From the NCBI RefSeq assembly GCF_014207505.1, contig NZ_JACHGL010000001.1, forward strand, positions 310,001-374,000: 64,000 nt of DNA, in the 5' to 3' direction. Source of the DNA: Leuconostoc carnosum. Its GTDB lineage: Bacteria > Bacillota > Bacilli > Lactobacillales > Lactobacillaceae. The stretch's first letter is position 1; every line of letters begins with the position of its first letter. Both the position numbers and the translations under genes were made by a program. Below the pieces are notes generated by a model. The model saw only the letters and a list, made by a program, of their open reading frames with translations, did no database searches and had not been told where the DNA came from. Of this stretch, positions 6,403-58,831 are shown in pieces.

Positions 6403-7200
6403 ATGACAGTAATTACAGGAATTGTACTATATACACGACAATATAAAGATAATGATTTGTTGGTTCGCATACTTACTGAAACACGTGGGTTGTGGACTTT
6501 TTTGGCGCGTGGTGCAAAAAAGCCAAAATCGCATCTTGCAGCAGGTGTGCAACCTTATAATTTGATTACGTTCGAAGGGGCATTTCCAGCTCGTGAAAGC
6601 GGCTTAGGATATATAAATGATGTTCAAAGAGCAACAATATATCCTCGTTTAGTTGAAGATATTGAAGCCAATGCCTATGCGGCTCTCATTGCCAGCCTGA
6701 TTAACGCCACCTTTGAGGAAGGTGACCAAATTACGCGTTGGTATAATCAGCTTTTGTTAGCACTTCAAAAATTAGATGACGGCTTGGATCCACAAATTAT
6801 TGCTAACATATTTGAAATTCAATTATTAGTACCTTTAGGCGTTGCGCCTAATTGGAAAGCAGATCCATTAAGCGGTCAAGTAGACGGTAGCTTTGATTAT
6901 TCCGAAAAGTATAATGGTATTCTTTCAGAGAATCATTACAGTTTGGATGATCATCGTTTAATGTTAGACCAAAAAACAATATTCTATTTACGCCAATTTA
7001 GTGTGATTGATTTTAGACAAGTACATGAAATAAAGGTGTCAGCAGCCACAAAACGAGGATTACAACGTGTGATTGATTATATTTATGATAATCAAGTTGG
7101 ATTAAAACCACGTGCTAAAACCTTTATTGAGCAGATGCATTCATGGCAAAATACACTCATTAATTTTAGACAAAAGGGGAACGCAAAGAATGACAATTAA
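6403..7200 (+). CDS. recO: DNA repair protein RecO
   Basis: Recombination mediator that helps load RecA at gaps with RecF and RecR and anneals single strands. The 265-residue protein has the N-terminal OB-fold typical of RecO (TGIVLYTRQYKDNDLLVRILTETRG) and the GAKKPKSHLAAGVQP segment; the C-terminal half is helical. No strong ribosome site precedes ATG 6403, and the stop of the decayed upstream frame lies four bases away, so it may once have been translated by coupling. The end overlaps the asparaginase start by 11 bases. Confidence 0.92.
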   Translation: MTVITGIVLYTRQYKDNDLLVRILTETRGLWTFLARGAKKPKSHLAAGVQPYNLITFEGAFPARESGLGYINDVQRATIYPRLVEDIEANAYAALIASLINATFEEGDQITRWYNQLLLALQKLDDGLDPQIIANIFEIQLLVPLGVAPNWKADPLSGQVDGSFDYSEKYNGILSENHYSLDDHRLMLDQKTIFYLRQFSVIDFRQVHEIKVSAATKRGLQRVIDYIYDNQVGLKPRAKTFIEQMHSWQNTLINFRQKGNAKNDN

Positions 7201-8158
7201 AAAAATATTGGTTTTGCATACTGGTGGCACAATTTCAATGCATGAAGATGAAGATGGTGATGTGGAAACAGGCACAGAAAATCCATTAAATGGTGCTACT
7301 GTTCAACTACCTGATGCAGAATTAACTGTTGAAAGTATTTTTAATTTGCCGAGTGAACATATTGGACCACGGCATATGTTGCAATTACAGCAACGTATTT
7401 TGAAAACAAAAAACAGTTTTGATGGTGTTGTGATTACACATGGTACGGATACATTAGAAGAGACGGCATTTTTTTTGGATAGTACCTTATCAGTTGACTT
7501 TCCTATTGTGATTACAGGCGCTATGCGATCATCTAATGAATTGGGATCTGACGGACTTTATAATTATCAATCAGCTTTACGTGTTGCAGCGGATAAGAAT
7601 TCGCGACACCGTGGTGTGATGGTTGTCATGAACGATGAAATTCATGCTGCACGATTTGTTACTAAAACGCATACCACAAACGTTGCTACTTTTGGATCAC
7701 CAATCAGTGGGACGATGGGGTTACTGACAAAACGCCGTATAATCTTTTTTTATCAGTTAGCGCCACGACAAGTTTTCCCAATAACATCTGTTGATCAAAA
7801 TATTCCAGTATTGGAAGCATATGCTGGAATGGATGGGCAGCTCTTAGAATTATTAGCCGCGGCAAATGTTGATGGTGTCATTATCAAGGCTTTTGGGGCG
7901 GGTAATTTATCTAAAGAGGCTGCAAATGGTGTCTCGTTACTCCTATCACAACACATTCCAGTTATAATTGTTTCTCGTAGTTTTAATGGCGTTGCTGAGC
8001 CGGTTTATGATTATCTTGGCGGCGGGGTTCAGTTGGAAAAAGCTGGTGCTATCTTTGTGACAAGTATTAATGGACCAAAAGCACGTTTGAAATTGATGAT
8101 TGGTTTATCAAATCATTTAAATCATGTTGACTTGCATACATATTTACGCAATTCATGA
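7190..8158 (+). CDS. ansA: L-asparaginase, type I (cytosolic)
   Basis: Hydrolyses asparagine to aspartate and ammonia. The 322-residue protein has the first catalytic Thr in HTGGTIS (T14) and the second in ITHGTDTLEET. No signal peptide is seen, which fits the cytosolic type I class. ATG 7190 is chosen because AAGGGGAAC lies just upstream at 7175-7183; an upstream frame from 7112 runs antiparallel to nothing useful and lies inside recO. The 11-base overlap with recO suggests co-transcription. Released aspartate could feed the threonine pathway encoded next door. It ends at a strong bidirectional terminator. Confidence 0.93.
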   Translation: MTIKKILVLHTGGTISMHEDEDGDVETGTENPLNGATVQLPDAELTVESIFNLPSEHIGPRHMLQLQQRILKTKNSFDGVVITHGTDTLEETAFFLDSTLSVDFPIVITGAMRSSNELGSDGLYNYQSALRVAADKNSRHRGVMVVMNDEIHAARFVTKTHTTNVATFGSPISGTMGLLTKRRIIFFYQLAPRQVFPITSVDQNIPVLEAYAGMDGQLLELLAAANVDGVIIKAFGAGNLSKEAANGVSLLLSQHIPVIIVSRSFNGVAEPVYDYLGGGVQLEKAGAIFVTSINGPKARLKLMIGLSNHLNHVDLHTYLRNS

Positions 8159-8170
8159 TTACTCATCATA

Positions 8171-8207
8171 AAAAAGCTGAGATTGTCCTAGACAATCTCA
8201 GCTTTTT
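8171..8207. terminator. Bidirectional terminator between asparaginase and aspartokinase genes
   Basis: AAAAAGCTGAGATTGTC and its exact complement flank a three-base loop, with T runs on both strands. It serves both converging transcription units. Confidence 0.92.
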
Positions 8208-8212
8208 CAATG

Positions 8213-9574
8213 TTATACCATTTTAAAAATATTATCATAAATTGCTTTAACTGCACGTTCAGCTAAATCGGGTTGGATACCTAACATAATAGAAATTTCA
8301 CTAGCACCTTGGTTAACCATCTGTAGGCTAATATCGTGTTCTTTTAGGGGTGTGACAATATCTGTTAATGCACCAATTCGATTACGCATACCTTCACCGA
8401 CGACCATGATGATACCATAACTAGGTAGCCATTTTAAAGTATCAGGTTTAATCGTTGCTGCAATATCTTCTAACATACCATCAACTTGTTCTTGCGTTAA
8501 CAAAGTTTTGTCAAAAATAATTGTCAAATCATCAATTCCAGATGGCATATGTTCATAAGAAATATTGTGCTTCTTTAAAATTTCTAGAATACGTAATGTG
8601 AAGCCTACTTCTTTATTTAATAGGTAGCGGTGCAAATACAAAGCCGAAAATCGATTTGAATTTGCAATACCAGTGACTGGGCGTGTTTGTTGTACTTCGG
8701 TGGGTGGCACAATGAAAGTACCAGGTGCTTCGGGGTCATTTGTATTTTTAATATTAATCCGAATACCACCTTGAATGGCAGGTATGATTGCTTCATCATG
8801 AAATACAGCAAACCCAGCATACGATAATTCACGCATTTCATCATAAGTCATTTGTTTAATAGCCGCGGGATTTTCAATAATGCTTGGGTTAACAGCATAT
8901 ATCGCACTAACGTCTGTAAAGTTTTCATACAAATCGGCACTTAGTCCACGTGCCATAATTGCACCAGTAATATCTGATCCACCACGCGAAAAAGTTGCTA
9001 TGTCGCCATTTTCAGTGTAGCCAAAGAAACCCGGAACAATTAATCTTTCGCTGGTACTTAAATCTAATTCAGCAATGGTGTTATAAGATTTTGTATCAAA
9101 AGTGGCGGAACGGGCATTATCATCAACACGTAAGCCAATTTCCTTGGGGTCAACAAAACGTGCAGGTACACCTAAATGAGTGAAAACTTTAGCGATTAAT
9201 TGTGCATTAAGATACTCACCATGGGCTGCAAACGCTGCAAAAAGATAGTCAAACGAACGGTAATGTTTACGCGCAAGATGATCAATTTGTTCATCAATAT
9301 CAGCTAATTCATAGGCAGGTAAGTCAAAATGATTACCAATAGCATGATAACGGTCTTTAATCGTTTCAATGATGTCTGTTGCATCGGTGTCTTCAATAGT
9401 GGCTTTAGCATATGTCAACAGTAAATCCGTGACTTTAGTATCATCTTTAAAACGTTTTCCTGGTGCAGAAACAACGATAACTTTTCTTGTATCATCTGCT
9501 TTAATAATGTCAAATACACATTGTAATTGATGGCCATCGGCGAGTGAGGATCCACCAAATTTTGATACTTTCAT
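8213..9574 (-). CDS. Aspartate kinase
   Basis: Phosphorylates aspartate, the first step toward threonine, methionine, lysine and diaminopimelate. The 453-residue protein begins MKVSKFGGSSLADG, the aspartokinase nucleotide-binding signature. It has the FSRGGSDITGA substrate segment near the middle and two C-terminal ACT domains (around residues 310-450), the usual site of end-product inhibition. It is monofunctional, as a separate homoserine dehydrogenase lies two genes upstream. Only two bases separate it from thrB, so hom-thrB-aspartokinase form one minus-strand operon, which suggests this isoenzyme serves threonine supply. Confidence 0.95.
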   Translation of the reverse strand: MKVSKFGGSSLADGHQLQCVFDIIKADDTRKVIVVSAPGKRFKDDTKVTDLLLTYAKATIEDTDATDIIETIKDRYHAIGNHFDLPAYELADIDEQIDHLARKHYRSFDYLFAAFAAHGEYLNAQLIAKVFTHLGVPARFVDPKEIGLRVDDNARSATFDTKSYNTIAELDLSTSERLIVPGFFGYTENGDIATFSRGGSDITGAIMARGLSADLYENFTDVSAIYAVNPSIIENPAAIKQMTYDEMRELSYAGFAVFHDEAIIPAIQGGIRINIKNTNDPEAPGTFIVPPTEVQQTRPVTGIANSNRFSALYLHRYLLNKEVGFTLRILEILKKHNISYEHMPSGIDDLTIIFDKTLLTQEQVDGMLEDIAATIKPDTLKWLPSYGIIMVVGEGMRNRIGALTDIVTPLKEHDISLQMVNQGASEISIMLGIQPDLAERAVKAIYDNIFKMV

Positions 9575-9576
9575 GT

Positions 9577-10461
9577 TTATGATCTTCTTTCTGTAGTAAT
9601 ACTTAATCCTTGAAAATCAGGTTCAAGTTGCAAAATTTTACCGGGTAAATTTGCTGCTGATAGTGCGTCAATCAATTGCTGGGTATCTTTTTTAGGTGTA
9701 ACAGTGATAATTGTAGGACCAGCGCCCGATAGATAGGTACCAATTATATCTAGGTGATGTGCAATATCACGAATAGTAGATAATTCAGGGACTAAATGTT
9801 GGCGAGCTGTCTCATGGAATAGATCTTTTTCTATCAGTTCACGAGCTGTATTAAAATCATCGACATTGAGTGCTGCGATTAATGTATTACTAATTGCACT
9901 AGCTGCAGTACTCGTTTTGAATGGTAAGTTTGCTGGTAAAGCTTTGCGTGCATCGGACGTCATGAGCTTATAATTTGGAATAAATGTGACAAAATTAACA
10001 TTTTGGGGTAAATGTAAGGGTGCATGATAGACACGAGAGCCATCATAATAAGCTGATACACCGCCACCAAATAATGCCGGGGCAACATTATCAGGATGAC
10101 CTTCTAATGCAGTGGCATGCTCCAATAGCTCCTCGTTGTCTATATTTAAATGTGCCAATGCTTTAGCCATCGCTAAACCAGCTAATAGTGCTGATGAAGA
10201 TGAACCAAGCCCGCGTGCGAGAGGAATATCTGAGCTGACACGAATACGATGAGGCGGTAAATCTGGGACCAATGATAAGGCAGTTTTGACAATAAAATTC
10301 GTCTCATCTTGTGGCATATCTTCTTGATAGTCATGTTCAACCAACCATTGGTCTGTTACTTCATAAATATTTAAAGTTAAATAGAGATTTAAGGCGACAC
10401 CTAGTGAGTCAAATCCAGGACCAATATTTGCTGTAGTAGCTGGAACAGTTATTTTAATCAT
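9577..10461 (-). CDS. thrB: Homoserine kinase
   Basis: GHMP-family kinase making O-phosphohomoserine from homoserine and ATP. The 294-residue protein carries the GHMP ATP-binding loop PLARGLGSSSSALLAG (around 85-100), an N-terminal PATTANIGPGFDSLG and a C-terminal GAGPTIITV motif. Its start overlaps the end of hom by four bases, and it is followed after two bases by the aspartokinase gene, so translation is probably coupled across the operon. Confidence 0.96.
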   Translation of the reverse strand: MIKITVPATTANIGPGFDSLGVALNLYLTLNIYEVTDQWLVEHDYQEDMPQDETNFIVKTALSLVPDLPPHRIRVSSDIPLARGLGSSSSALLAGLAMAKALAHLNIDNEELLEHATALEGHPDNVAPALFGGGVSAYYDGSRVYHAPLHLPQNVNFVTFIPNYKLMTSDARKALPANLPFKTSTAASAISNTLIAALNVDDFNTARELIEKDLFHETARQHLVPELSTIRDIAHHLDIIGTYLSGAGPTIITVTPKKDTQQLIDALSAANLPGKILQLEPDFQGLSITTERRS

Positions 10462-11744
10462 GAAAATATTTTATACTCCGCGGCTAAATTTATACCATCA
10501 GCATTTCGAATCGTTGTACGAATCACATTTAATTGTGCATCACTTGCTGGGTGAGTTAATGCAACAAGACGAGCTGTCCCATTTGCAGCAGGTGTTTGTT
10601 TTAAGTCAGTGAAACTAATTTTTGCTGCAGCGAACATACCGGTTACTGAATACATTGCGCCAGGTGTATCGTCAACTTCAACAACAATAAAACGTCGCGC
10701 AACCCGTTGTGAAGGTTTTGCTAAATTCAGGTCTTGGTTAAAGGAATTAAATGGTCGTCCAGGTGTGTTTAATGCAAGGTCAGTTGCCACATTAGTTAAG
10801 TCGCTAAGGACGGAATTAGCTGTTGGCATCTCACCAGCTCCAGGACCGTACAACATGACCTCACCGACAGATTCGCCATTAACCAATACGGCGTTATTTT
10901 CATTATTCACAGTTGCCAATGGATGTGTAAAGGGGACTAGATGAGGAGCAACTTCAATACTGATGGCTTCTTTGGTATCGCCAACACGTTGTGCAACACC
11001 CAGGAGCTTGACAGCGTAACCGAAACTATTAGCGTCAGCAATGTCTGTGTCAGTTAGATTGGCAATGCCATTTATCGTCAGGTCACCTAAGACTGGCTGA
11101 ATACCAAAGGCAAAGTTCGATAGAATAATTAATTTAAAGGCAGCATCGAAGCCTTCAACATCGTTAGTTGGATCAGATTCGGCAAACCCTTTATCCTGAG
11201 CCAATTTCAAAGCTTCAGCATAGGATAAGTTATTGATTGCCATTTGTGTCAAAATAAAGTTACTCGTACCATTAATAATACCAGCCACACGTGATATTTC
11301 ATCAGCTGTAAAACTTGAAGCTAATGTGCGTAAAATAGGAATACCACCAGCAACTGCGGCCTCAAAGAACAAATCGACACCGTTTGCTTCTGCAATAGCA
11401 ACTAACTCTTGTCCGTGACTAGCAATTAAGTCTTTATTGGCAGTAACAACATGTTTTTTAGCATTTAGTGCGCGTTTAATAATGTCGTACGCCTGATCTA
11501 ATGTCCCCATCACTTCAACCACAATCTGAATATCATCATTGTCTAAAATATCTGATGCATTATCTGTGATTGGAAAGTCTTGTGTAAATCCATGACGGGG
11601 TTTATTAAGATTGTGCACCACTGCGTGCTTAACAGTTAAGCGGGAACCTGTCCTTTTGGTTATTTGGTCCATATTTTCTTGTAAAATTTTGACGACACCA
11701 CTGCCGACCGTACCTAAGCCGAAAAGCCCAATTCCAATGTCCAT
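10458..11744 (-). CDS. hom: Homoserine dehydrogenase
   Basis: NAD(P)-dependent reduction of aspartate semialdehyde to homoserine. The 428-residue protein has the Rossmann motif GLFGLGTVGSGV at the N-terminus, the catalytic region (NGTSNFILTQM; AESDPTNDVEGFDAAFK) and a C-terminal ACT domain (VEVDDTPGAMYSVTGMF) for threonine feedback. It is the first gene of the minus-strand operon. AAAGGAAG lies just ahead of its ATG. It diverges from thrC across 107 bases, so the two halves of the threonine pathway share a control region; I could not fix the minus-strand promoter. Confidence 0.96.
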   Translation of the reverse strand: MDIGIGLFGLGTVGSGVVKILQENMDQITKRTGSRLTVKHAVVHNLNKPRHGFTQDFPITDNASDILDNDDIQIVVEVMGTLDQAYDIIKRALNAKKHVVTANKDLIASHGQELVAIAEANGVDLFFEAAVAGGIPILRTLASSFTADEISRVAGIINGTSNFILTQMAINNLSYAEALKLAQDKGFAESDPTNDVEGFDAAFKLIILSNFAFGIQPVLGDLTINGIANLTDTDIADANSFGYAVKLLGVAQRVGDTKEAISIEVAPHLVPFTHPLATVNNENNAVLVNGESVGEVMLYGPGAGEMPTANSVLSDLTNVATDLALNTPGRPFNSFNQDLNLAKPSQRVARRFIVVEVDDTPGAMYSVTGMFAAAKISFTDLKQTPAANGTARLVALTHPASDAQLNVIRTTIRNADGINLAAEYKIFS

Positions 11745-50008: not shown

Positions 50009-50033
50009 ACTATTATGTGATACAATAATCATT

Positions 50034-50110
50034 GTGCTAGGGGCGCTACTATGTGGCTGAGAAGAACCCTTTGAACCTGAACTGGATTATACCAGCGTAG
50101 GAAAGTGTCA
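50034..50110 (+). promoter_or_regulatory. TPP riboswitch (first of tandem pair ahead of the NCS2/LuxE/LuxC operon)
   Basis: The aptamer core is clear: CTAGGGGCGC, CTGAGAAG, CCCTTTGAACCTGAACTGGATTATACCAGCGTAGGAAAGTG in outline. The CUGAGA and ACCUGA...GCGUAGGAAAGU boxes mark thiamine pyrophosphate binding. It is followed by a terminator hairpin at 50127-50162, so TPP would stop transcription before the operon. Confidence 0.95.
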
Positions 50111-50126
50111 TACTGATTATTTTAGA

Positions 50127-50162
50127 TGGTGCTTTTCTCATGTTAGAGAAGGGTATTTTTTA
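50127..50162 (+). terminator. Riboswitch-linked terminator (first leader)
   Basis: GGTGCTTTTCTC pairs with GAGAAGGGTAT, using wobble pairs, and is followed by six T residues. It lies 17 bases after the first aptamer and would be the OFF state. Confidence 0.75.
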
Positions 50163-50199
50163 TTTGCACAGAATATGGTACGAAAGGAACAATATAAAA

Positions 50200-50217
50200 A
50201 TGAATAAAGCTCACTAG
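50200..50217 (+). other. Five-codon mini-frame between the two riboswitches
   Basis: AAAGGAA (50183-50189) then ATG AAT AAA GCT CAC TAG encodes MNKAH. The stop overlaps the first bases of the second aptamer. A matching frame (MNKHH) sits at the same place in the thiW leader. It may be a leftover start of a lost gene or a leader peptide. Confidence 0.5.
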
Positions 50218-50292
50218 GGGCGTCGTAATGACTGAGATGATATATCGGTCCCTTGGAACCTGATCTAGTTTATACTAGCGTAGGAAAGTGAC
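50211..50292 (+). promoter_or_regulatory. TPP riboswitch (second of tandem pair)
   Basis: CACTAGGGGCG, GACTGAGATGAT, TCCCTTGGAACCTGATCTAG and ACTAGCGTAGGAAAGTG show the TPP aptamer boxes. It lies about 100 bases after the first aptamer. A terminator follows at 50330-50364, just before the permease start, so two TPP-sensing gates act in series. Confidence 0.93.
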
Positions 50293-50329
50293 CAAAATTG
50301 TGTAACATCCTGTGATGTTACCGCGCACT

Positions 50330-50364
50330 AGGGTCCTTTTGTATGTCACATAAGGACCCTTTTT
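50330..50364 (+). terminator. Riboswitch-linked terminator before the NCS2 permease gene
   Basis: AGGGTCCTT (50330-50338) and AAGGACCCT (50352-50360) form a 9-bp stem followed by T residues. A separate hairpin TAACATCC/ATGTTA (50302-50319) lies between aptamer and terminator and may take part in switching. Confidence 0.85.
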
Positions 50365-50382
50365 GAGATGGAAGGAATTGTT

Positions 50383-51663
50383 TTGACTATGGCGACACAT
50401 AATAACCGCATAGTAGACCATGGTTTAGCTGGTTTACAACATGTTTTTGTTTCTAATGTATGGCTAGATCCAATCTATGTTGCAGCGGCAGCAGGGTTAT
50501 CGTTAAATTTATCAACTAATTTGGTAAATACTATTTTTATTGTTTCAGGGTTGGTCACACTGACTCAAGTGACACGTTTAGCACGACTACCAATTATTCA
50601 AGGGCCATCTGCTGCCTTTGATGCCTTGATGATTAATGCTGGTAGAGCTGGCCAGTTGGCCTCAGCAAGTGGCTCCATTTTAGCCAGTGCACTGATTATT
50701 TTTTTGCTATCTGTAACAGGATTAATTAATAAATTAGTTCGCCTGCTAACACCGGCTATTACTGGAACACTTATCTTTCTGGTCGGCGTTTCTTTATCCA
50801 GTTTTACATTATCTGAATTTTTAGGTGGTTATCCTGGAGATAAACATTTCTCTTCACCGACGACACTTGTATTATCAATTTCAACATCAGCCATTGTTAT
50901 TTTACTTTCAATATTTGGTAAAGGTTTTTGGAAACGTTTTTCCTTTTTGATTGCATTAGTTGTAGGCGATGTTTTATCAGTTGCAATGGGGCGTGTTGAT
51001 TACAGTGTATTAGCGGCTAAATCGTGGTTTGGCTTACCTCACTTATTACCATATGGTGCGTTAAATTTTAATTGGACGATGTTTCTGACTTTTTTTGTTG
51101 CCTATCTTGTTGCTGTGGTAGAAGCAGTTGGCGTGTATGAAGCTGCTAGTGACGTGATGAAAGAAGATATTTCACCACGCCGTATTCAAAATGGTTTGAT
51201 TGGTGAATCGGCTGGTTCAATATTATCATCGCTATTTGGTGGTTTTCCAACAACTGCTTTTGCACAAAATGTTGGTATTTTAAAATTAACTGGTAATGTC
51301 TCAAGAATTCCTGTAGTTATTGCAGGTGTTTTGTTTGTGATATTGGGATTTGTGCCAAAAATTGGGGCATTTTTAGCAATTACCCCAAGCCCAGTGATTG
51401 GTGGTATCTTTCTGCCAGCAGCAACGACTTTAATTATGACAGGATTTAATATTCTGAAAAAGGCACCATCAACAAATGCAAATAATATGATTATTGGGTT
51501 ATCGATTGTGTTGGCTATTGCTCTACCAAATTATGCTACTGGGTGGCATGGTGCAGTGGGTCAACTTTTGTCTAATACAATCTTAATAGGCGCAATATCT
51601 GCCATCACATTACAGTTTGTTCTTGTGAATTTACCACAAATGATAAATAAATTAAGGAGATAA
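50383..51663 (+). CDS. NCS2-family permease (xanthine/uracil type) under TPP control
   Basis: Membrane symporter of the nucleobase NCS2 family, about 426 residues with 12 or more hydrophobic segments. It shows HGLAGLQHVFVSNVWLDPIYV, the family motif PIIQGPSAAFDA, the second-half EAVGVYEAASDVMKEDISPRR and FPTTAFAQNVGILKLTGN. TTG 50383 has GGAAGGA (50370-50376) six bases upstream; ATG 50389 is the alternative. Two TPP riboswitches precede it and luxE-, luxC- and SDR-like genes follow it within two bases or so, so its cargo is probably a thiamine-related heterocycle, not a nucleobase. That cargo is inference. Confidence 0.85.
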   Translation: MTMATHNNRIVDHGLAGLQHVFVSNVWLDPIYVAAAAGLSLNLSTNLVNTIFIVSGLVTLTQVTRLARLPIIQGPSAAFDALMINAGRAGQLASASGSILASALIIFLLSVTGLINKLVRLLTPAITGTLIFLVGVSLSSFTLSEFLGGYPGDKHFSSPTTLVLSISTSAIVILLSIFGKGFWKRFSFLIALVVGDVLSVAMGRVDYSVLAAKSWFGLPHLLPYGALNFNWTMFLTFFVAYLVAVVEAVGVYEAASDVMKEDISPRRIQNGLIGESAGSILSSLFGGFPTTAFAQNVGILKLTGNVSRIPVVIAGVLFVILGFVPKIGAFLAITPSPVIGGIFLPAATTLIMTGFNILKKAPSTNANNMIIGLSIVLAIALPNYATGWHGAVGQLLSNTILIGAISAITLQFVLVNLPQMINKLRR

Positions 51664-51664
51664 C

Positions 51665-52777
51665 ATGTCTGATGAATCTGACGTTATTCAAGCACGTCTT
51701 GTAAAGTTTATACAACAGTATAAAGAGGGGAAATCAAGTGAATATGAAGTTGATTTTAATCAATTAGCCATGAGTGTATTTGATTATCAATTCCAAAATA
51801 ACTTACCCTACAAAAAATTTGCGCAATTAAAGCATAAAAATCCATTAACTGTCAAAAATTGGCAGGATTTGCCTTTGATACCAATTGAAGCCTATAAACA
51901 ATTAACATTATCTACCCGAGACACTACGCAAGCTGAAGATGTTTTTTATTCAAGTGGGACAACGAATGCACAACAAAAAAGTCGACATTATATTTCCGAC
52001 TTAAGGGTTTGGGAGCAATCAATGATAGCGGGATTTAAGCAATATGTTATCCCTACCAAAGAAAAAATAACGATATTTTCTCTATTTCCAGATATGTCAA
52101 GTCATCCTAATTCGTCACTATCTCGCTATATTACAACAGCTATGCAGGTATTTGGGACAGAAAATAGTCAGGTGTTTTTTAAACATAATCAGTTAGATTA
52201 TGTTAATTTGATATCAGCTCTGAAACAAGCACAAGCTAATCATGAGCAGGTATTAGTTTTAGGTGCTTCTTTTTCATATGTGCACTTATTAGCTTATTTC
52301 GATCAGCATCCACAAACATTTGATTTAGCAGAAGGCAGTATTATTTTTGATACGGGTGGTTTTAAAGGTCAGTCTCAAGAAGTCAGTATGTCTACTTTGT
52401 ACAAAAATTTAGGTCAAGTATTTAATGTATCCCGTGAACAGATTATTAATATGTACGGTATGACAGAAATTAGTTCGCAATGTTATGATCGTAATCTAAT
52501 AGATTTATCACAAAATCAGTCAACTTACTTTGATAAAATGCCACCTGCTTGGGTAAAAATTCAAATTTTAGATGTGGAAACGTTACAACCTATTGAACAG
52601 GGGAAACGGGGTCTTTTGGCTTATTATGATTTGGCCAATTGGGATACATGTTTGGCTATTTTAACCGAAGATATTGCCATTCAAAATGAACATGGTTTTA
52701 CGATTATTGGACGAGCGAAGGGATCAGAAGCTAAAGGCTGTTCTATTGCTGTTGATGAGCTTTTAAAAGTGCGTTAA
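51665..52777 (+). CDS. LuxE-like acyl-protein synthetase (acyl-activating enzyme)
   Basis: ATP-dependent carboxylic acid-activating enzyme of the LuxE family, 370 residues. It has the adenylate-forming loop YSSGTTNAQQKSRHY (95-109), the NMYGMTEISSQCYD stretch and GRAKGSEAKGCSIAVDELL at the end. In lux systems LuxE adenylates a fatty acid and hands the acyl group to LuxC. Here the partner LuxC-like gene follows in 12 bases. AAGGAGA precedes the ATG, two bases after the permease stop. TPP control suggests a thiamine-derived acid rather than a fatty acid as substrate; this is inference. Confidence 0.85.
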   Translation: MSDESDVIQARLVKFIQQYKEGKSSEYEVDFNQLAMSVFDYQFQNNLPYKKFAQLKHKNPLTVKNWQDLPLIPIEAYKQLTLSTRDTTQAEDVFYSSGTTNAQQKSRHYISDLRVWEQSMIAGFKQYVIPTKEKITIFSLFPDMSSHPNSSLSRYITTAMQVFGTENSQVFFKHNQLDYVNLISALKQAQANHEQVLVLGASFSYVHLLAYFDQHPQTFDLAEGSIIFDTGGFKGQSQEVSMSTLYKNLGQVFNVSREQIINMYGMTEISSQCYDRNLIDLSQNQSTYFDKMPPAWVKIQILDVETLQPIEQGKRGLLAYYDLANWDTCLAILTEDIAIQNEHGFTIIGRAKGSEAKGCSIAVDELLKVR

Positions 52778-52789
52778 GAGGAATAGCAT

Positions 52790-54253
52790 ATGACTAGTAA
52801 ACAAACAACAATTGATATTTTTCATATACCAACAAATATTACGTTGAATACGCTAACTGAAACAATTATAGAGAATGAGTCACATACTGTGGTTTTACGT
52901 TATCCTGAGATATCTGTTACTGAGATAAAGCATATAGCTAATGTACTTCAAACGAATCAACACGATTACTTAGACCAACTGACTACATCGCAAATTATTG
53001 ATGTTATTTCACAAGTTGCTGAAAAATGGACGGATCCAACCTACTATTTACGCCAAGTAGCTGAGACAGTAATACCTATTACAACGGGTTATAATGCTGA
53101 CCAAGTAAAACTGGAGCTTAAGCGTTTTATTCGCTTATTCCGAAAGAAGGAGTTAAAGCGATTTGTGAATTCTGAAATAGGGCATGCGGGCGCTATGTTG
53201 GATGATTTTCAACCGAATCTAGCCGGTGGTTTCTCAAAGTTTTTTGGGCCTGATCTGATTTTTCAAATATTTTCTGGTAATGTACCAGGGATACAGTTGT
53301 GGACCCTTATAATGGGGCTACTCGTCAAATCGCCAACATTAGGGAAATTATCTTTTTCCGAACCAATTATGCCAGCATTATTTGTGCAAACATTAGCTGA
53401 AATAGATTCAAGATTAGCTGACTCAATTGCTATATTGCCTTGGCATAGTGGTCAAGAACTGGAAAAAGCTGGTATCGAAGTTGCTGATACCGTGGTTGTG
53501 TGTGGTGGTGAAATAGCAGTTAAAAAAATTAAAGCGCAAGTGCCTTTGGATAAAAAAGTATTGAGTTACGGCTATAAAATAGGATTTGTTATTGTTGGTA
53601 GAGAGGCATTGACACCGGAATATTATCCCCAAACAATTAAAAAGATAGCTGAGGATATTAGTATTTATGATCAACAAAGTTGTCTAGCCCCACAATCAAT
53701 TTTTGTAGAGCGTGGTGGTGCAATCACTACAGATGAATTTTCTGCATTACTAGCTACTGAATTAAATAATTACCAAATTAAATATTCTCGCGCTATCTTA
53801 CAAGAATCTGAAAAATTGGCAATTGAAAAAATGAGGCAAGCAACAGATATAGAATCTATTGAAAATAGCAGAACATTACTATTTGCTAGTGAGGATAGTA
53901 CATCCTGGACAGTTGCTTTTCATGATCACTTGGGGTTTAGTGCCTCACCTTTGAATCGATCTGTTCATGTCTTTTCTATAGATGATTTTCTGCAACTACA
54001 ACCAATCTTGAAACCATATCAGTCATACTTACAGACAGCTGGCGTTGCAATCGCACCAAAGCGGTTATTTACTCTCGCAAATGTTTTGGGTAAGTTGGGA
54101 GTTAGTCGAATGAGTGCAGTGGGTCAAATGAATCACGTATCTAGTGCGTGGCATCATGATGGTCACTTCAATTTGCTGGATTTAGTTCGTGTGACAGATA
54201 TTGAGAATAGTCTAGAAGTTGAAAGTGAGTATTTTGATGCTGATGTTGAATGA
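52790..54253 (+). CDS. LuxC-like acyl-thioester reductase
   Basis: NADPH-dependent reductase of the LuxC family, 487 residues. The aldehyde-dehydrogenase-like fold shows IFSGNVPGIQLWTLIMGLL, ADSIAILPWHSGQELEKAG, DTVVVCGGE and the catalytic Cys in YDQQSCLAPQSIFVE (C298). LuxC takes an activated acyl group as a thioester and releases the aldehyde. The pairing with LuxE gives a complete acid-to-aldehyde step. It ends nine bases before an SDR gene. No luxA, luxB or luxD genes occur, so light emission is excluded. Confidence 0.87.
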   Translation: MTSKQTTIDIFHIPTNITLNTLTETIIENESHTVVLRYPEISVTEIKHIANVLQTNQHDYLDQLTTSQIIDVISQVAEKWTDPTYYLRQVAETVIPITTGYNADQVKLELKRFIRLFRKKELKRFVNSEIGHAGAMLDDFQPNLAGGFSKFFGPDLIFQIFSGNVPGIQLWTLIMGLLVKSPTLGKLSFSEPIMPALFVQTLAEIDSRLADSIAILPWHSGQELEKAGIEVADTVVVCGGEIAVKKIKAQVPLDKKVLSYGYKIGFVIVGREALTPEYYPQTIKKIAEDISIYDQQSCLAPQSIFVERGGAITTDEFSALLATELNNYQIKYSRAILQESEKLAIEKMRQATDIESIENSRTLLFASEDSTSWTVAFHDHLGFSASPLNRSVHVFSIDDFLQLQPILKPYQSYLQTAGVAIAPKRLFTLANVLGKLGVSRMSAVGQMNHVSSAWHHDGHFNLLDLVRVTDIENSLEVESEYFDADVE

Positions 54254-54262
54254 GGAGAAAAT

Positions 54263-55030
54263 ATGCTTTTAAAAAATAAGGTCGCACTGGTCACTGGAGC
54301 TAGTCGAGGTATCGGTGCAGCTATTGCAAAAATGTATGCTAAAGAAGGTGCAATAGTTATTGTTAATTACTTGCATAATACTCAACATGCTCAGACCATT
54401 GTTCAAAGTATCATTTCACAAGGTGGACAAGCTGTTGCGATGCAATGCGATATACGAGATCAGCAGGAAGTCCATAATATGCTGCAAAATATCTTGGATA
54501 ATTTTGGTACAATTCATATTGTTGTTAATAATGCACTGAGTCAGTATCAGTTTGACCCTAAAAATAGAAAATTATTAGGTGATTTACAATGGTCTGACTA
54601 TCAAGCACAAATAGATGGTAGTTTAAAGGCTGTTTTGAATGTAGTTGATTTTGTTTTACCAAAACTAAAGCAAAATAATGAGAGCAGCATTATTAATATC
54701 ACGAGTAATTTAATTCAGTCACCAGCAATCCCGTATCATGACTATATTGTCGGTAAGTCAGCTGTTCTTGGATTAACACGTACCATGGCAATTGAATTAG
54801 GAGCTTTTGGTATTCGTGTGAATGCGATTGCGCCAGGCCTAACTGTACCAACAGACTCAAGTCAATTGACACATCGTGACGTGCGAGAAAAACTTATTGA
54901 CCAAACACCAACAGGTCGGTTAACTACACCGGAAGACGTTGCGGGGACAGCAGTATATCTAGCAACCGCACTTTCCAGTAATGTCACCGGACAATGTTTA
55001 TTTGTTGATGGTGGGTTAACAATGACTTGA
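54263..55030 (+). CDS. Short-chain dehydrogenase/reductase
   Basis: NAD(P)-dependent SDR, 255 residues, similar to FabG. It has the cofactor loop VTGASRGIGAAIA, the NNA motif (VVNNALSQYQF), catalytic Ser region SSIINITSN, the catalytic pair Y161 and K165 (YIVGK) and the end LFVDGGLTM. As the last gene of the operon after LuxE and LuxC, it could reduce the aldehyde to an alcohol. Other SDR activities are possible. AGGAGAAA precedes the ATG. Confidence 0.88.
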   Translation: MLLKNKVALVTGASRGIGAAIAKMYAKEGAIVIVNYLHNTQHAQTIVQSIISQGGQAVAMQCDIRDQQEVHNMLQNILDNFGTIHIVVNNALSQYQFDPKNRKLLGDLQWSDYQAQIDGSLKAVLNVVDFVLPKLKQNNESSIINITSNLIQSPAIPYHDYIVGKSAVLGLTRTMAIELGAFGIRVNAIAPGLTVPTDSSQLTHRDVREKLIDQTPTGRLTTPEDVAGTAVYLATALSSNVTGQCLFVDGGLTMT

Positions 55031-55307: not shown

Positions 55308-55363
55308 GTAACTAGAAAATTAACTATGCTAGTGAATTGTTTTTTGTTATCGTAAGGGATAAA

Positions 55364-57055
55364 ATGTTAATAATGGCATATGACATTAAAAAAAGTTTTA
55401 GTATACTTATTTTGCTATTAGCCTCAACATTACTAATAACACCATTTTTATTTAATCACGCCATGATTATTGGCTCAGATGCGATTTTCCATTTTAATCG
55501 TTTTTATGACACCGCTATGCAAATAAAACATTGTGATTTTCAATATTTTATTTCAATTTATGGTTTTCAATCGTCTGGTAGAATTGTTAACGCTTTGTAT
55601 GGCCCTTTAATGGCATATGCTCAAGGATTGCTGGTTCTTTTGAGTCCATCTTGGTTTGTATATCAGATGCTATCAAATGCCATATTATATTTTTGCGCAG
55701 GTTTGTCATTATATTTACTATTAAAAAAAGCTAGAATCGGTGATCAATATAGCTTGCCATTAAGTATTTTTTATATGACGTGTTATTCAATTCAATATTG
55801 GACAATACGGCAAGGTTTCTCTAGTTGGGGTGCTGCATTAATGCCAGTATGCTTTATACCACTGATAGATCTAGTTGAGAATAAGAAACTAAGCACAATT
55901 AAAACGGCAGTGGCAGTCGCAGCAATGGCTCAGGTACATATGCTATCAGCTTTTTTGTTGGTTTTTGTATATATTTGTTTTTTTTCTTCTATTTTTTTTA
56001 ATCAAAGTCGCATGATTAAATTAAAACTAATTAAGCAAGTCGGTATGTCAGTTTTAGTTTGTACTGCCTTAGTTGCTAATCTCATTTATTGTTTTATTGC
56101 TGTTGACGGTTATAACGATATTGCTCAGCCATTTACTAATAAATATATGTGGCGGATGACAGTTTTTACTGGTAGTAGTTATTGGTTAGTTTATCCGCCA
56201 GTATTAATATTAGCTATTGTATTTTTCGTTTGGCAAATGACTAAAATGTGGCATAAATCAGCGCTTTTGTTGCGAGTAACCGAGATAACTGCTTTTATAT
56301 GTTTCACATTATCGACGAATATTTTTCCATGGCGTTTATTTAGTAACAGTGTGTTTAGCTTCATTCAATTTCCATTTAGATTTTTTATTCCTTTTACGGT
56401 ACTATTGCTTTTAGCGGTTGGCTTAATGTTACAAAATAATGCATACATTTCTTGGTCGTTTTATAGTGTGATCATTATTGTGATGGCAGCGTCGTTATGT
56501 CAAACAATGATGTCATCGAATAATACTTTGAATGTATGGCACCGTTCTACAAAGTATTTGAATGGACAAGTTCATACCCGTATCAATTCTGACGATAATT
56601 CTCAAGTAAAACAATCTTTTTTTAAAAAAGATAAGAGTAAGGCATTGCAGTACATTGTAAAGTCAACACCAGATTATTTGCCCATTGATAGTAATAACAA
56701 AAAAAGTAAGTATGAACTATACCAATCATTAATTTTAAACAATCAACAAAACTTTCGTAAATCAGTTAAAGATCATAAATTATTCCTTAACTGGTATGGT
56801 GATTACCAGAAAAAGGTTCAGTTACCAATTATTAAATATAAAAATACTGTGATGATTTTAAATCACACATCAATATCTAAACATATGACTCAATTTAGTG
56901 CGATCAATACGCCTATCATTACACAAAAGAAGGGGCCAAATCAACTTGTGGTTTATTACCAACATGATTGGTTTCTTTACCCAATACTACTGTTTACGTT
57001 TATGAGCTGGTCTGTTGTATTTATTGTATATCAGAAAACTTGGCACAGTAACTAA
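55364..57055 (+). CDS. Large polytopic membrane protein, glycosyltransferase-C-like
   Basis: The 563-residue protein has about ten hydrophobic segments (residues 5-370) and a C-terminal soluble part (about 370-540) ending in a last membrane segment. Near the start it has IIGSDAIFHFNRFYDTA, an acidic, aromatic motif seen in Gram-positive GT-C-like and YfhO-related membrane proteins. A role in glycosylation of lipids or wall polymers is possible but unproven. ATG 55364 has TAAGGGAT three to four bases upstream, and 55373 is an alternative. The structured RNA and terminator lie upstream. Confidence 0.65.
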   Translation: MLIMAYDIKKSFSILILLLASTLLITPFLFNHAMIIGSDAIFHFNRFYDTAMQIKHCDFQYFISIYGFQSSGRIVNALYGPLMAYAQGLLVLLSPSWFVYQMLSNAILYFCAGLSLYLLLKKARIGDQYSLPLSIFYMTCYSIQYWTIRQGFSSWGAALMPVCFIPLIDLVENKKLSTIKTAVAVAAMAQVHMLSAFLLVFVYICFFSSIFFNQSRMIKLKLIKQVGMSVLVCTALVANLIYCFIAVDGYNDIAQPFTNKYMWRMTVFTGSSYWLVYPPVLILAIVFFVWQMTKMWHKSALLLRVTEITAFICFTLSTNIFPWRLFSNSVFSFIQFPFRFFIPFTVLLLLAVGLMLQNNAYISWSFYSVIIIVMAASLCQTMMSSNNTLNVWHRSTKYLNGQVHTRINSDDNSQVKQSFFKKDKSKALQYIVKSTPDYLPIDSNNKKSKYELYQSLILNNQQNFRKSVKDHKLFLNWYGDYQKKVQLPIIKYKNTVMILNHTSISKHMTQFSAINTPIITQKKGPNQLVVYYQHDWFLYPILLFTFMSWSVVFIVYQKTWHSN

Positions 57056-57149
57056 TGAATTTTTTAAATTAACATATTGTCAATTTTCTGAATGTCTTGT
57101 TACAAATATTTCTCACGACTTTTTGATACTTTTATGCTATAATACTTTT

Positions 57150-57226
57150 GTACTAGGGGCGCCACTATGCGTGGCTGAGAAGCACCCTTTGAACCTGATC
57201 TGGTTAACACCAGCGTAGGAAAGTGC
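57150..57226 (+). promoter_or_regulatory. TPP riboswitch ahead of thiW-thiM
   Basis: ACTAGGGGCGCC, GGCTGAGAAG, CCCTTTGAACCTGATCTGG and ACACCAGCGTAGGAAAGTGCC give a complete TPP aptamer. An extended -10 box (TGCTATAAT, 57135-57143) is 7 bases upstream. The sequence is closely similar to the first aptamer at 50034 and continues into a similar terminator and mini-frame. Confidence 0.95.
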
Positions 57227-57247
57227 CATACTGATTGTTTTTAGATG

Positions 57248-57412: not shown

Positions 57413-57503
57413 TCACACAGTAAGTGTTAATGATAAAAGTGCCTTTTTATTTGTACAAGAGCACACTTTTGATGAATCCTTACTAAAAGATATGGAGAAT
57501 ACT

Positions 57504-58016
57504 ATGAATATAAAAATCAAAAAAATTACTATTGTCACGGTTATGATTGCATTGGACGTTGTGTTGTCACCAATTTTTAGAATTGAAGGCATGGCACCAA
57601 TGTCTAGTGTTATGAACATTATTGCCGGGGTGACTCTTGGTCCATTTTACACAGTTGTTATGGCGCTAATTACTGGCATTATTAGAATAGTCATCATGGG
57701 AATTCCACCATTAGCGCTAACTGGTGCAGTATTCGGGGCCTTGTTGTCAAGTCTATTTTATAAGTATGGACGTACAATGTATTGGGCGATGTTTGGTGAA
57801 TTTGTAGGGACAGGTCTTATTGGGTCTTTAATATCATATCCAGTCATGGTTTGGTTTACTGGAACGCATCAAGGGTTATATTGGATGATTTATACACCAC
57901 GCTTTATTGGTGCTACGTTAATTGGTGCGGTAATTGCCTACTTTATTTTGCTTAACCTAACAAAAATCAAAATTTATCAGGATGTGCAGCAAATATTTAT
58001 GAAATCGAGCGTCTAA
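57504..58016 (+). CDS. thiW: ThiW, ECF transporter S component for the thiazole
   Basis: Substrate-binding membrane subunit of an energy-coupling factor importer, predicted for hydroxyethylthiazole. The 170-residue protein has about five to six hydrophobic segments, MAPMSSVMNIIAGVTLGPFY and GTGLIGSLISYPVMVWFTG, which match ThiW. ATG 57504 has GGAG (57494-57497) six bases upstream; ATG 57492 is within that site. It is coupled to thiM by a one-base stop-start overlap and is preceded by a TPP riboswitch. The ECF A, A-prime and T subunits are encoded elsewhere. Confidence 0.9.
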   Translation: MNIKIKKITIVTVMIALDVVLSPIFRIEGMAPMSSVMNIIAGVTLGPFYTVVMALITGIIRIVIMGIPPLALTGAVFGALLSSLFYKYGRTMYWAMFGEFVGTGLIGSLISYPVMVWFTGTHQGLYWMIYTPRFIGATLIGAVIAYFILLNLTKIKIYQDVQQIFMKSSV

Positions 58017-58831
58017 TGACAAAAAAATTGGCAGAAATAATACCTTTGAACAATGTGCCGTTAATTCATTGTATTACTAATGATATTACCTTAGAAACAT
58101 TAGCTAATACAATTTTGTATTTAGGTGGCAAGCCGATTATGAGTAGTGATGTTCGTGAATTTGCTGATCTGTTTAAAACAACTGATGCTTTATTGCTCAA
58201 TATGGGACGATTGACTGTCAATCATGAGGCTAGCTTAAGAGAGGCTAGCCATTTTGCGGTTATTAGTCATAAGCCAGTTGTCGTTGATTTAGTTGGCTAT
58301 GGTATGACAGAGCAACGTCGAAAATTAGGTGACGAACTTATCAATCATCAACCTACAATCGTTAAAGGTAATATTTCCGAAATGAGAAGATTGGTGGGCT
58401 TGCCAACAATTGCTAAAGGCATTGATGGTGACGTCTCAGATCAAAGTGATTTTGCCTTACAAGAACTTAATCATGCACTCAAAGAACTGTGTAAACGCTA
58501 CCCTAAAACAGTGTTTGTAGCTACGGGAAGGCGTGATATTGTCGTACAGGGTGAACGCTCCGCATTGTTATGCAATGGTGTAGCAGCATTAGATCGGTTT
58601 GTAGGAACAGGAGATATGCTTGGTGCTATTATGGCAACCTTGATAGGTGCTGGTGCAGCAGCTTGGGAGGCGAGCTCTATAGCAATTAGTTATCTTAACA
58701 TTGCGGGTGAAATAGCTGATAATCAGACACACGGATTGGAAAATTTCAGACAAGAAATGCTAAATCAAATTAGTTTATTGCAAAAAAAGTCAGGTTGGTC
58801 AAAAAATATTCATAGTTCTACTTTCAATTAG
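58016..58831 (+). CDS. thiM: Hydroxyethylthiazole kinase
   Basis: Phosphorylates 4-methyl-5-hydroxyethylthiazole for thiamine salvage. The 271-residue protein has VPLIHCITNDITLETLANTIL, PIMSSDVREFADL, VVVDLVGYGMTEQRRKLGDEL, PTIVKGNISEMRRL and the catalytic loop FVGTGDMLGAIMA. In the B. subtilis and E. coli enzymes the loop is GTGC with a Cys; here it is D200, as in ribokinase-type enzymes. It overlaps thiW by one base. No thiD or thiE is seen here. Confidence 0.92.
   Translation: MTKKLAEIIPLNNVPLIHCITNDITLETLANTILYLGGKPIMSSDVREFADLFKTTDALLLNMGRLTVNHEASLREASHFAVISHKPVVVDLVGYGMTEQRRKLGDELINHQPTIVKGNISEMRRLVGLPTIAKGIDGDVSDQSDFALQELNHALKELCKRYPKTVFVATGRRDIVVQGERSALLCNGVAALDRFVGTGDMLGAIMATLIGAGAAAWEASSIAISYLNIAGEIADNQTHGLENFRQEMLNQISLLQKKSGWSKNIHSSTFN

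Follow-up and report, generated by a model that had tools for sequence, protein, structure and literature searches.

Several systems controlled by thiamine pyrophosphate (TPP) are known that recover the halves of thiamine. In formylaminopyrimidine salvage (ThiXYZ, YlmB, TenA) the degraded thiamine pyrimidine is regained as hydroxymethylpyrimidine (HMP) by hydrolysis of an amine derivative, and in ThiW-ThiM thiazole salvage and CytX (NCS1) HMP uptake a thiamine half is imported as the ready alcohol, with no redox step. Here we describe an operon in a stretch of 64,000 nucleotides from Leuconostoc carnosum (contig NZ_JACHGL010000001.1, positions 310,001-374,000 of the forward strand; hereafter the window), in which two TPP riboswitches precede genes for an NCS2 permease, a LuxE-like acid-activating enzyme, a LuxC-like thioester reductase and a short-chain dehydrogenase (SDR). 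It differs from the ThiW-ThiM and CytX systems in having an NCS2 rather than an NCS1 transporter, together with redox enzymes, and from formylaminopyrimidine salvage in that other enzymes would be used and an acid would be reduced. The operon is, very probably, a thiamine-controlled module that reduces an acid to an alcohol; the acid is probably 4-amino-2-methylpyrimidine-5-carboxylate (the pyrimidine acid) and the product HMP, as judged from gene content and gene order.

The fatty acid reductase of bioluminescence, represented by the LuxE-LuxC structure 7xc6, is built from the same two enzyme families, and Cys298 of the window's LuxC and Cys359 of its LuxE align with cysteines in the chains of that luminous complex which we take to be catalytic, the one in LuxE as the acyl acceptor. 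Unlike the luminous system, the present operon has an SDR and a transporter and is under TPP control, and its proteins score far below the luminous equivalogs, i.e. 87.1 bits against a cut-off of 550 for the long-chain-fatty-acid-protein ligase LuxE (NF052244) and 99.6 bits against a cut-off of 750 for the long-chain-fatty-acyl-CoA reductase LuxC (NF052251). Nor is it a lux operon, in which luxA and luxB would stand beside luxC and luxE; in agreement with the initial annotation, which had seen no luxAB, Pfam identified no luciferase among the four genes, a luciferase search of the genome not having been made. Together, the LuxE, LuxC and SDR families are known to lead from an acid via an acyl thioester and an aldehyde to an alcohol. 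The residues concerned are strongly conserved: LuxC Cys298 and LuxE Cys359 are invariant in all 92 loci that could be read in the alignments, and SDR Tyr161 and Lys165 in all 90, as is Gly18 of the Rossmann glycine motif (Gly16 in 89 of the 90), the glycine and YxxxK motifs together marking a classical SDR. Cys298 and the Tyr161/Lys165 pair stand where the initial annotation had placed them.

An AlphaFold model of the window's LuxE (predicted local distance difference test score, pLDDT, 85) has as its best structural match the PaaK-type phenylacetate activator 2y27 (Z 24.6 over 302 residues, ~10% identity), and it also scores highly against salicylate enzymes and EhpF-type phenazine enzymes (3hgv, 3l2k; Z 20, ~13% identity). 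The predicted fold is thus nearest to activators of small acids, mostly aryl acids. The LuxE of 7xc6 was not among the matches listed in the fold search, though the sequence search found it, and the fold ranking is therefore no test of family membership. PaaK enzymes are phenylacetate-CoA ligases that produce CoA thioesters. EhpF-type enzymes activate phenazine dicarboxylate, a heteroaromatic carboxylate, en route to a hydroxymethyl group, which is the same change as that from the pyrimidine acid to HMP; unlike the present module, however, EhpF belongs to antibiotic biosynthesis, and we know of no EhpF within a LuxC-SDR set. As a separate observation, the luxE frame in an assembly of L. holzapfelii (locus L025, 7855-8658; the same place as L017, 8466-9269) spans 267 residues against ~370 in relatives, and the gene may be broken there.

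The layout of the locus (Table 1) is as the initial annotation had described it: two TPP aptamers with terminators, four tightly spaced genes (identified by Pfam matches, with intergenic gaps of 1, 12 and 9 bases) and, nearby, thiW-thiM (57492-58831) behind a TPP aptamer of its own. The E-values of the first two aptamers in the 64-kb window are 6e-13 and 8e-14. The hairpin behind the first was the single match of a consensus terminator scan (mean of 0.3 in shuffled sequence), and the second, at 50330-50360, was absent from the list of that scan and was recognised by its predicted fold and the T run that follows. Between sdr and the thiW aptamer (55337-57055) lies a frame of 572 residues that matches no Pfam or NCBIfam family and looks membrane-protein-like by eye.

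Table 1. Features of the operon and of the neighbouring thiW-thiM genes, in window coordinates.
Feature	Position	Strand	Evidence
TPP riboswitch aptamer 1	50029..50120	+	Rfam RF00059, 74.9 bits (above the gathering score of 54.3)
Terminator hairpin after aptamer 1	50128..50157	+	Consensus terminator scan; fold of 50118-50166: -14.4 kcal/mol, z -4.5
TPP riboswitch aptamer 2	50206..50303	+	RF00059, 78.5 bits (above the gathering score of 54.3)
Terminator hairpin after aptamer 2	50330..50366 (stem 50330-50360, then T run TTTTT)	+	Fold of 50318-50366: -17 kcal/mol, z -3.7
NCS2 permease, predicted fragment importer (putative substrate)	50368..51663	+	PF00860, 261 bits
LuxE-like acid-activating enzyme, acyl-acceptor Cys359	51665..52777	+	PF04443, 98.3 bits (gathering 24.9)
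LuxC-like thioester reductase, nucleophile Cys298	52790..54253	+	PF05893, 335.9 bits (gathering 21)
Short-chain dehydrogenase (SDR), predicted aldehyde reductase, Y161/K165	54263..55030	+	PF13561, 184 bits
TPP riboswitch aptamer of thiW-thiM	57145..57238	+	RF00059, 82.1 bits
thiW, thiazole-precursor ECF (energy-coupling factor) S component	57492..58016	+	TIGR02359, 164 bits (cut-off 84)
thiM, hydroxyethylthiazole kinase	58016..58831	+	NF006830, 195 bits (cut-off 180)

The strongest evidence for thiamine control comes from homologous operons. A scan of 84,980 species genomes gave 364 stretches encoding a LuxC relative. The 80 best of these, the relatives L015, L016 and L018, and ten loci drawn from a class sample make up the 93 loci compared here, 91 of them distinct (L119 is identical to L098, and L120 to L090). 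A TPP aptamer heads the operon in 89 of the 93, as judged by a covariance model that was trained on 16 aptamers from Leuconostoc and its close relatives, Rfam itself having been applied to a minority of the loci. Homologous operons mostly lacking thiamine control, which the initial annotation had named as speaking against its proposal, were thus not what we found. Three of the four loci without a TPP head (L044, L054 and L083) are on contigs that start inside the operon or in the first frame shown (luxE), and the fourth, L099, has no match to the aptamer model. Among the loci also run against Rfam, nine operon-head aptamers (L046, L048, L075, L082, L090, L094, L097, L120 and L124) fall below the Rfam gathering score and so rest on the covariance model and their position. 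The class sample is a fairer test, since its 398 genomes were not picked for thiamine traits; this LuxC (E of 1e-30 or better) occurs in ten of them besides the L. carnosum genome, and by the model all ten are TPP-headed, with eight aptamers above the Rfam gathering score (L120 and L124 below) and, in L117, a series of thi genes following the aptamer. The recurrence of the arrangement, together with the E-values of the aptamers, indicates that it is not due to chance. An earlier scan with a regular-expression TPP motif had picked up no more than 31 of 80 loci, and the covariance model took its place.

At E-values up to 10 the covariance model gave 100 matches in 1.58 Mb. One of them (L098, L119; E 1.3) is remote from any recognised thiamine gene, and four head other genes, i.e. 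thiM-thiD-thiE (L096), a long thi run (L045), thiW (L034) and a frame that by eye is ykoE-like (L123). Locus L123 is unusual in that two aptamers lie on opposite strands ~100 bases apart (8957-9056, minus; 9160-9259, plus), one heading luxE-luxC-sdr on the minus strand and the other the ykoE-like frame of 190 residues.

Carriers of the module include Leuconostoc, Lentilactobacillus, many Bacillaceae, Paenibacillus, Bifidobacterium, Azospirillum, Polaromonas, Pantoea and Enterobacter; a search of Escherichia coli genomes with the Enterobacter operon DNA gave no match. Among 150 relatives of the L. carnosum genome, this LuxC is present in five, that genome counted. The commonest orders among the 93 loci are TPP-luxE-luxC-ABC-sdr (37 loci; ABC, ATP-binding cassette transporter), TPP-ncs2-luxE-luxC-sdr (21) and TPP-luxE-luxC-sdr (6). 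The SDR is found in 89; of the other four, L097 and L124 end early, L053 has an SDR past a gap and L083 has none within ~2 kb behind luxC.

The enzymes stay while the importer is exchanged. NCS2 stands ahead of luxE in 36 of the 93 loci, and an ABC ATPase, permease and binding protein behind luxC in 47, the two never occurring together. In a quick, midpoint-rooted LuxC tree all 37 rows with NCS2 (that of the window included) lie in one set of 39 with 100% support in the Shimodaira-Hasegawa-like approximate likelihood ratio test (SH-aLRT), the other two members being L028, which has no transporter, and L054, whose contig starts inside luxC; the importer therefore appears to have changed few times while LuxE, LuxC and SDR remained. 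Long branches in this tree lead to L123, L083, L046, L116, L121, L048 and L080. Both importer types are compatible with a pyrimidine. Glu252 and Gln300 of the NCS2 protein, a Glu and Gln pair which we take to form the nucleobase pocket, are present in 36 of 36 relatives and align with Glu241 and Glu290 of UraA (counted by hand on the alignment); the protein scores 330 bits against the xanthine permease PbuX model (TIGR03173), below its cut-off of 414. The ABC form shares with formylaminopyrimidine salvage an NMT1/THI5-like binding protein, as found in each of the three tested of the 47 (PF09084, 151-180 bits), and in a PDB search with one of these ThiY, a formylaminopyrimidine-binding protein, ranked third, with THI5 weaker.

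The module is also carried on plasmids. A 10.3-kb plasmid of Lactiplantibacillus plantarum (strain SRCM103295) and a 21.2-kb plasmid of Levilactobacillus brevis (the L125/L126 pair) encode the operon, all four protein accessions being shared, and this suggests that it moved between food lactobacilli recently; further carriers are plasmids of Priestia (127 kb) and Pantoea (large plasmids). In each of the four plasmid regions that were examined, the aptamer model has a match upstream of the operon. In the plasmid records the genes are annotated as a long-chain fatty acid-CoA ligase or acyl-CoA synthetase, an acyl-CoA reductase (with a bioluminescence term), a solute carrier family 23 protein and an SDR or 3-oxoacyl-ACP reductase.

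With respect to which acid is reduced, we searched 54 carrier genomes whole, i.e. 50 genomes of the 80 loci (mostly isolates chosen) and four more. ThiD is present in all 54 (TIGR00097, above cut-off), as is the ThiE/TenI family, which is found in 301 of 329 genomes of the class (p 0.008, the carriers not all being of that class). ThiM (above the family cut-off) and ThiG (counted at E below 1e-90) are each present in 50, and TenA in 43. The pyrimidine acid fits best because of the way the module fills gaps in genomes and operons that have neither ThiC nor TenA. Three carriers, G001 (Leuconostoc), G159 (Tuberibacillus) and G168 (Paenibacillus nasutitermitis), are of this kind, with ThiD and ThiE present. 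In P. nasutitermitis a single gene run reads TPP-tenI-thiO-thiS-thiG-thiF-ncs2-luxE-luxC-sdr-thiD-thiE, and a search of the genome found none of ThiC, TenA and ThiM; judged by gene order, the module would occupy the slot where HMP supply belongs. In Tuberibacillus (L034) the order is TPP-thiM-thiD-thiE-ncs2-luxE-luxC-sdr, with a TPP-headed thiW ~4 kb further on, and in Leuconostoc G001 (L016) it is TPP-TPP-ncs2-luxE-luxC-sdr-thiW, so that in both thiW and thiM would cover the thiazole and the module the pyrimidine. Of the thi genes that join the operon, thiD does so in 11 of the 93 loci, and it leads the operon in three Ramlibacter loci. The pyrimidine acid itself is named as a thiamine metabolite isolated from rat urine in a 1964 title, as given in the reference list of PMC7780320.

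A number of observations weigh against the pyrimidine acid. ThiC is present in 35 of the 54 carriers, where HMP could hence be made de novo, and nine of the ten carriers from the class sample have both ThiC and ThiG. The loss of ThiC had at first looked like a telling sign, with 15 of 54 carriers having ThiG but no ThiC and none ThiC alone; the class control (92 and 13 of 398 genomes, respectively) removed it, neither carrier figure being unusual (Fisher p 0.49 and 0.38). The expectation in the initial annotation that carriers would lack thiC thus holds for the L. carnosum genome, but not in general. The gap-filling in G001, G159 and G168 rests on searches for ThiC and TenA, with CytX, HmpT, ThiXYZ and YkoEDC outside their scope, and the completeness of the G159 and G168 assemblies is not stated. 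With regard to the importers, the family PF09084 is a wide one, the binding proteins concerned also give sub-threshold matches to sulfonate and taurine models, and two proteins of unstated ligand rank ahead of ThiY in the PDB search. Moreover, thiW joins the operon in six of the 93 loci and thiM in nine (eight distinct), i.e. nearly as often as thiD; L090 (= L120) has thiM but no thiD behind the module, the nearest relatives, L015 and L016, carry thiW behind it, and in L028 (Niallia sp. NCCP-28, 6643-10477), which has two TPP aptamers, thiW, luxE, luxC and sdr, thiW stands at the place of NCS2, with both thiW and NCS2 present in its near relative L026.

The L. carnosum genome (1.82 Mb, 16 contigs) has nine TPP riboswitches in all. 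Their targets, as read from the next genes and with some names given by eye, are the present operon (two), thiW-thiM, thiM-thiD-thiE, ykoE-ykoD-ykoC-like genes with tenA, an M20-hydrolase-tenA pair, a further tenA, a second thiE and a nucleoside-deoxyribosyltransferase-like gene. ThiC was not found in the genome and the ThiG profile gave weak matches only (best 3.7e-5); it should therefore need both thiamine halves, or thiamine, from outside. The initial annotation had argued for the pyrimidine acid partly on the grounds that no other pyrimidine importer was visible. Genome-wide this argument fails, since the TPP-headed ykoEDC-like/tenA and M20-hydrolase-tenA genes, which are presumably of the kinds used in pyrimidine or thiamine salvage, mean that the operon is not the sole pyrimidine candidate; its first guess at the substrate is still the one that fits best, for the reason of gap-filling given above. 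The deoxyribosyltransferase-like gene is a curiosity in its own right: the riboswitch (locus L021, 6305-6958; G000:C2:188304-188412 and behind) stands ahead of a protein of 161 residues with weak similarity to nucleoside 2-deoxyribosyltransferases (PF05014, E 1.4e-5, below gathering), behind which lies a frame that is thymidylate-synthase-like by eye, and we know of no role for such a gene in thiamine metabolism.

Four other readings have to be weighed. In one, the same machinery would act on thiamine acetic acid, in which the hydroxyethyl side chain is oxidised, and reduce it to thiamine. TPP control suits any thiamine product and the pyrimidine ring of this acid could likewise suit NCS2 and the NMT1-like protein, yet we consider it unlikely, because its product bypasses ThiD and ThiE, both of which are kept in every carrier (a mild argument in view of the class background for ThiE/TenI), and because in L045, L117, L072, L076 and L100 the module is embedded in, or adjoins, precursor-synthesis genes. 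A similarly small chance attaches to the proposal that the transporter imports HMP or another neutral precursor while LuxE, LuxC and SDR act on a different thiamine-related acid. Such a division of labour would account for a transporter that varies by clade beside constant enzymes, and for the bare form of the operon with no transporter; against it, the joint operon is nearly constant, and we know of no further candidate acid among the products of thiamine breakdown.

A slighter chance still has to be given to 4-methylthiazole-5-acetate as the substrate, with hydroxyethylthiazole as the product for ThiM. The thiW and thiM associations set out above, including those of L015 and L016, favour it, as does the LuxE fold, closest to phenylacetate activators, thiazole acetate being an arylacetate. 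However, four carriers, namely G168 and an Azospirillum and two Polaromonas (G184, G186 and G189), have no ThiM above cut-off, which argues against the thiazole alcohol as a general product; the P. nasutitermitis run already contains thiO-thiS-thiG-thiF, the nucleobase-type pocket is kept in NCS2, and a module beside thiW would presumably be redundant with it, not complementary. Finally, an ordinary substrate such as the long-chain acids of bioluminescence, with TPP control reflecting an indirect need, is suggested by the family names and by the fatty acid and bioluminescence annotations of relatives, but is very improbable given the low scores against the luminous LuxE and LuxC models, the co-transcribed nucleobase-type or NMT1-like transporter and the TPP control of nearly all loci.

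We therefore return to the pyrimidine acid, for which the operon would serve as a thiamine-repressed route that salvages the pyrimidine half of vitamin B1 in its oxidised form. The proposed scheme builds on what was observed: conserved TPP aptamers, the enzyme families with their conserved catalytic residues, the exchange of transporters and the co-occurrence of ThiD and ThiE. The NCS2 permease, mostly replaced in other lineages by the ABC transporter, would import 4-amino-2-methylpyrimidine-5-carboxylate, the substrate that we infer. Acid activation, thioester transfer, reduction and repression by TPP are known from the respective families; accepting the direction of reaction that we infer here, LuxE would activate the acid with ATP and hold it as an acyl thioester on Cys359, and LuxC would take over the acyl group on Cys298 and reduce it with NADPH to the aldehyde. 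The aldehyde, as the putative SDR substrate, would then be converted to HMP, and ThiD and ThiE would join the resulting HMP pyrophosphate to thiazole phosphate. Binding of TPP to both aptamers would end transcription early. The TPP control of the homologues supports the initial proposal that a carboxylated thiamine fragment is imported and reduced, with the identity of the fragment following less directly, from gene content.

The component families are known, and their joint use for thiamine is apparently new: in the open-access literature we found no paper tying LuxE-LuxC genes to thiamine, although subscription papers and supplements were beyond the scope of that search and priority is not proven. 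PMC3766115 puts the number of TPP-controlled orthologs at 20 for biosynthesis and 19 for transporters and lists them in its supplement, where mention of the genes is possible.

With the balance only slightly in its favour, we suggest that the module represents a widespread part of vitamin B1 metabolism that has not been described before, in which an oxidised pyrimidine is recovered by carboxylate reduction with LuxE and LuxC recruited from fatty acid metabolism, served by interchangeable importers and carried from one food lactobacillus to another by small plasmids. Soil, gut and food communities are shaped by thiamine auxotrophy and cross-feeding, and in public annotation the module, in the relatives seen, is described as genes for fatty acids or bioluminescence. 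If the proposal is correct, the LuxE and LuxC families would gain a small heteroaromatic substrate, and the pyrimidine acid would be a real nutrient in soil, the gut and fermented food.

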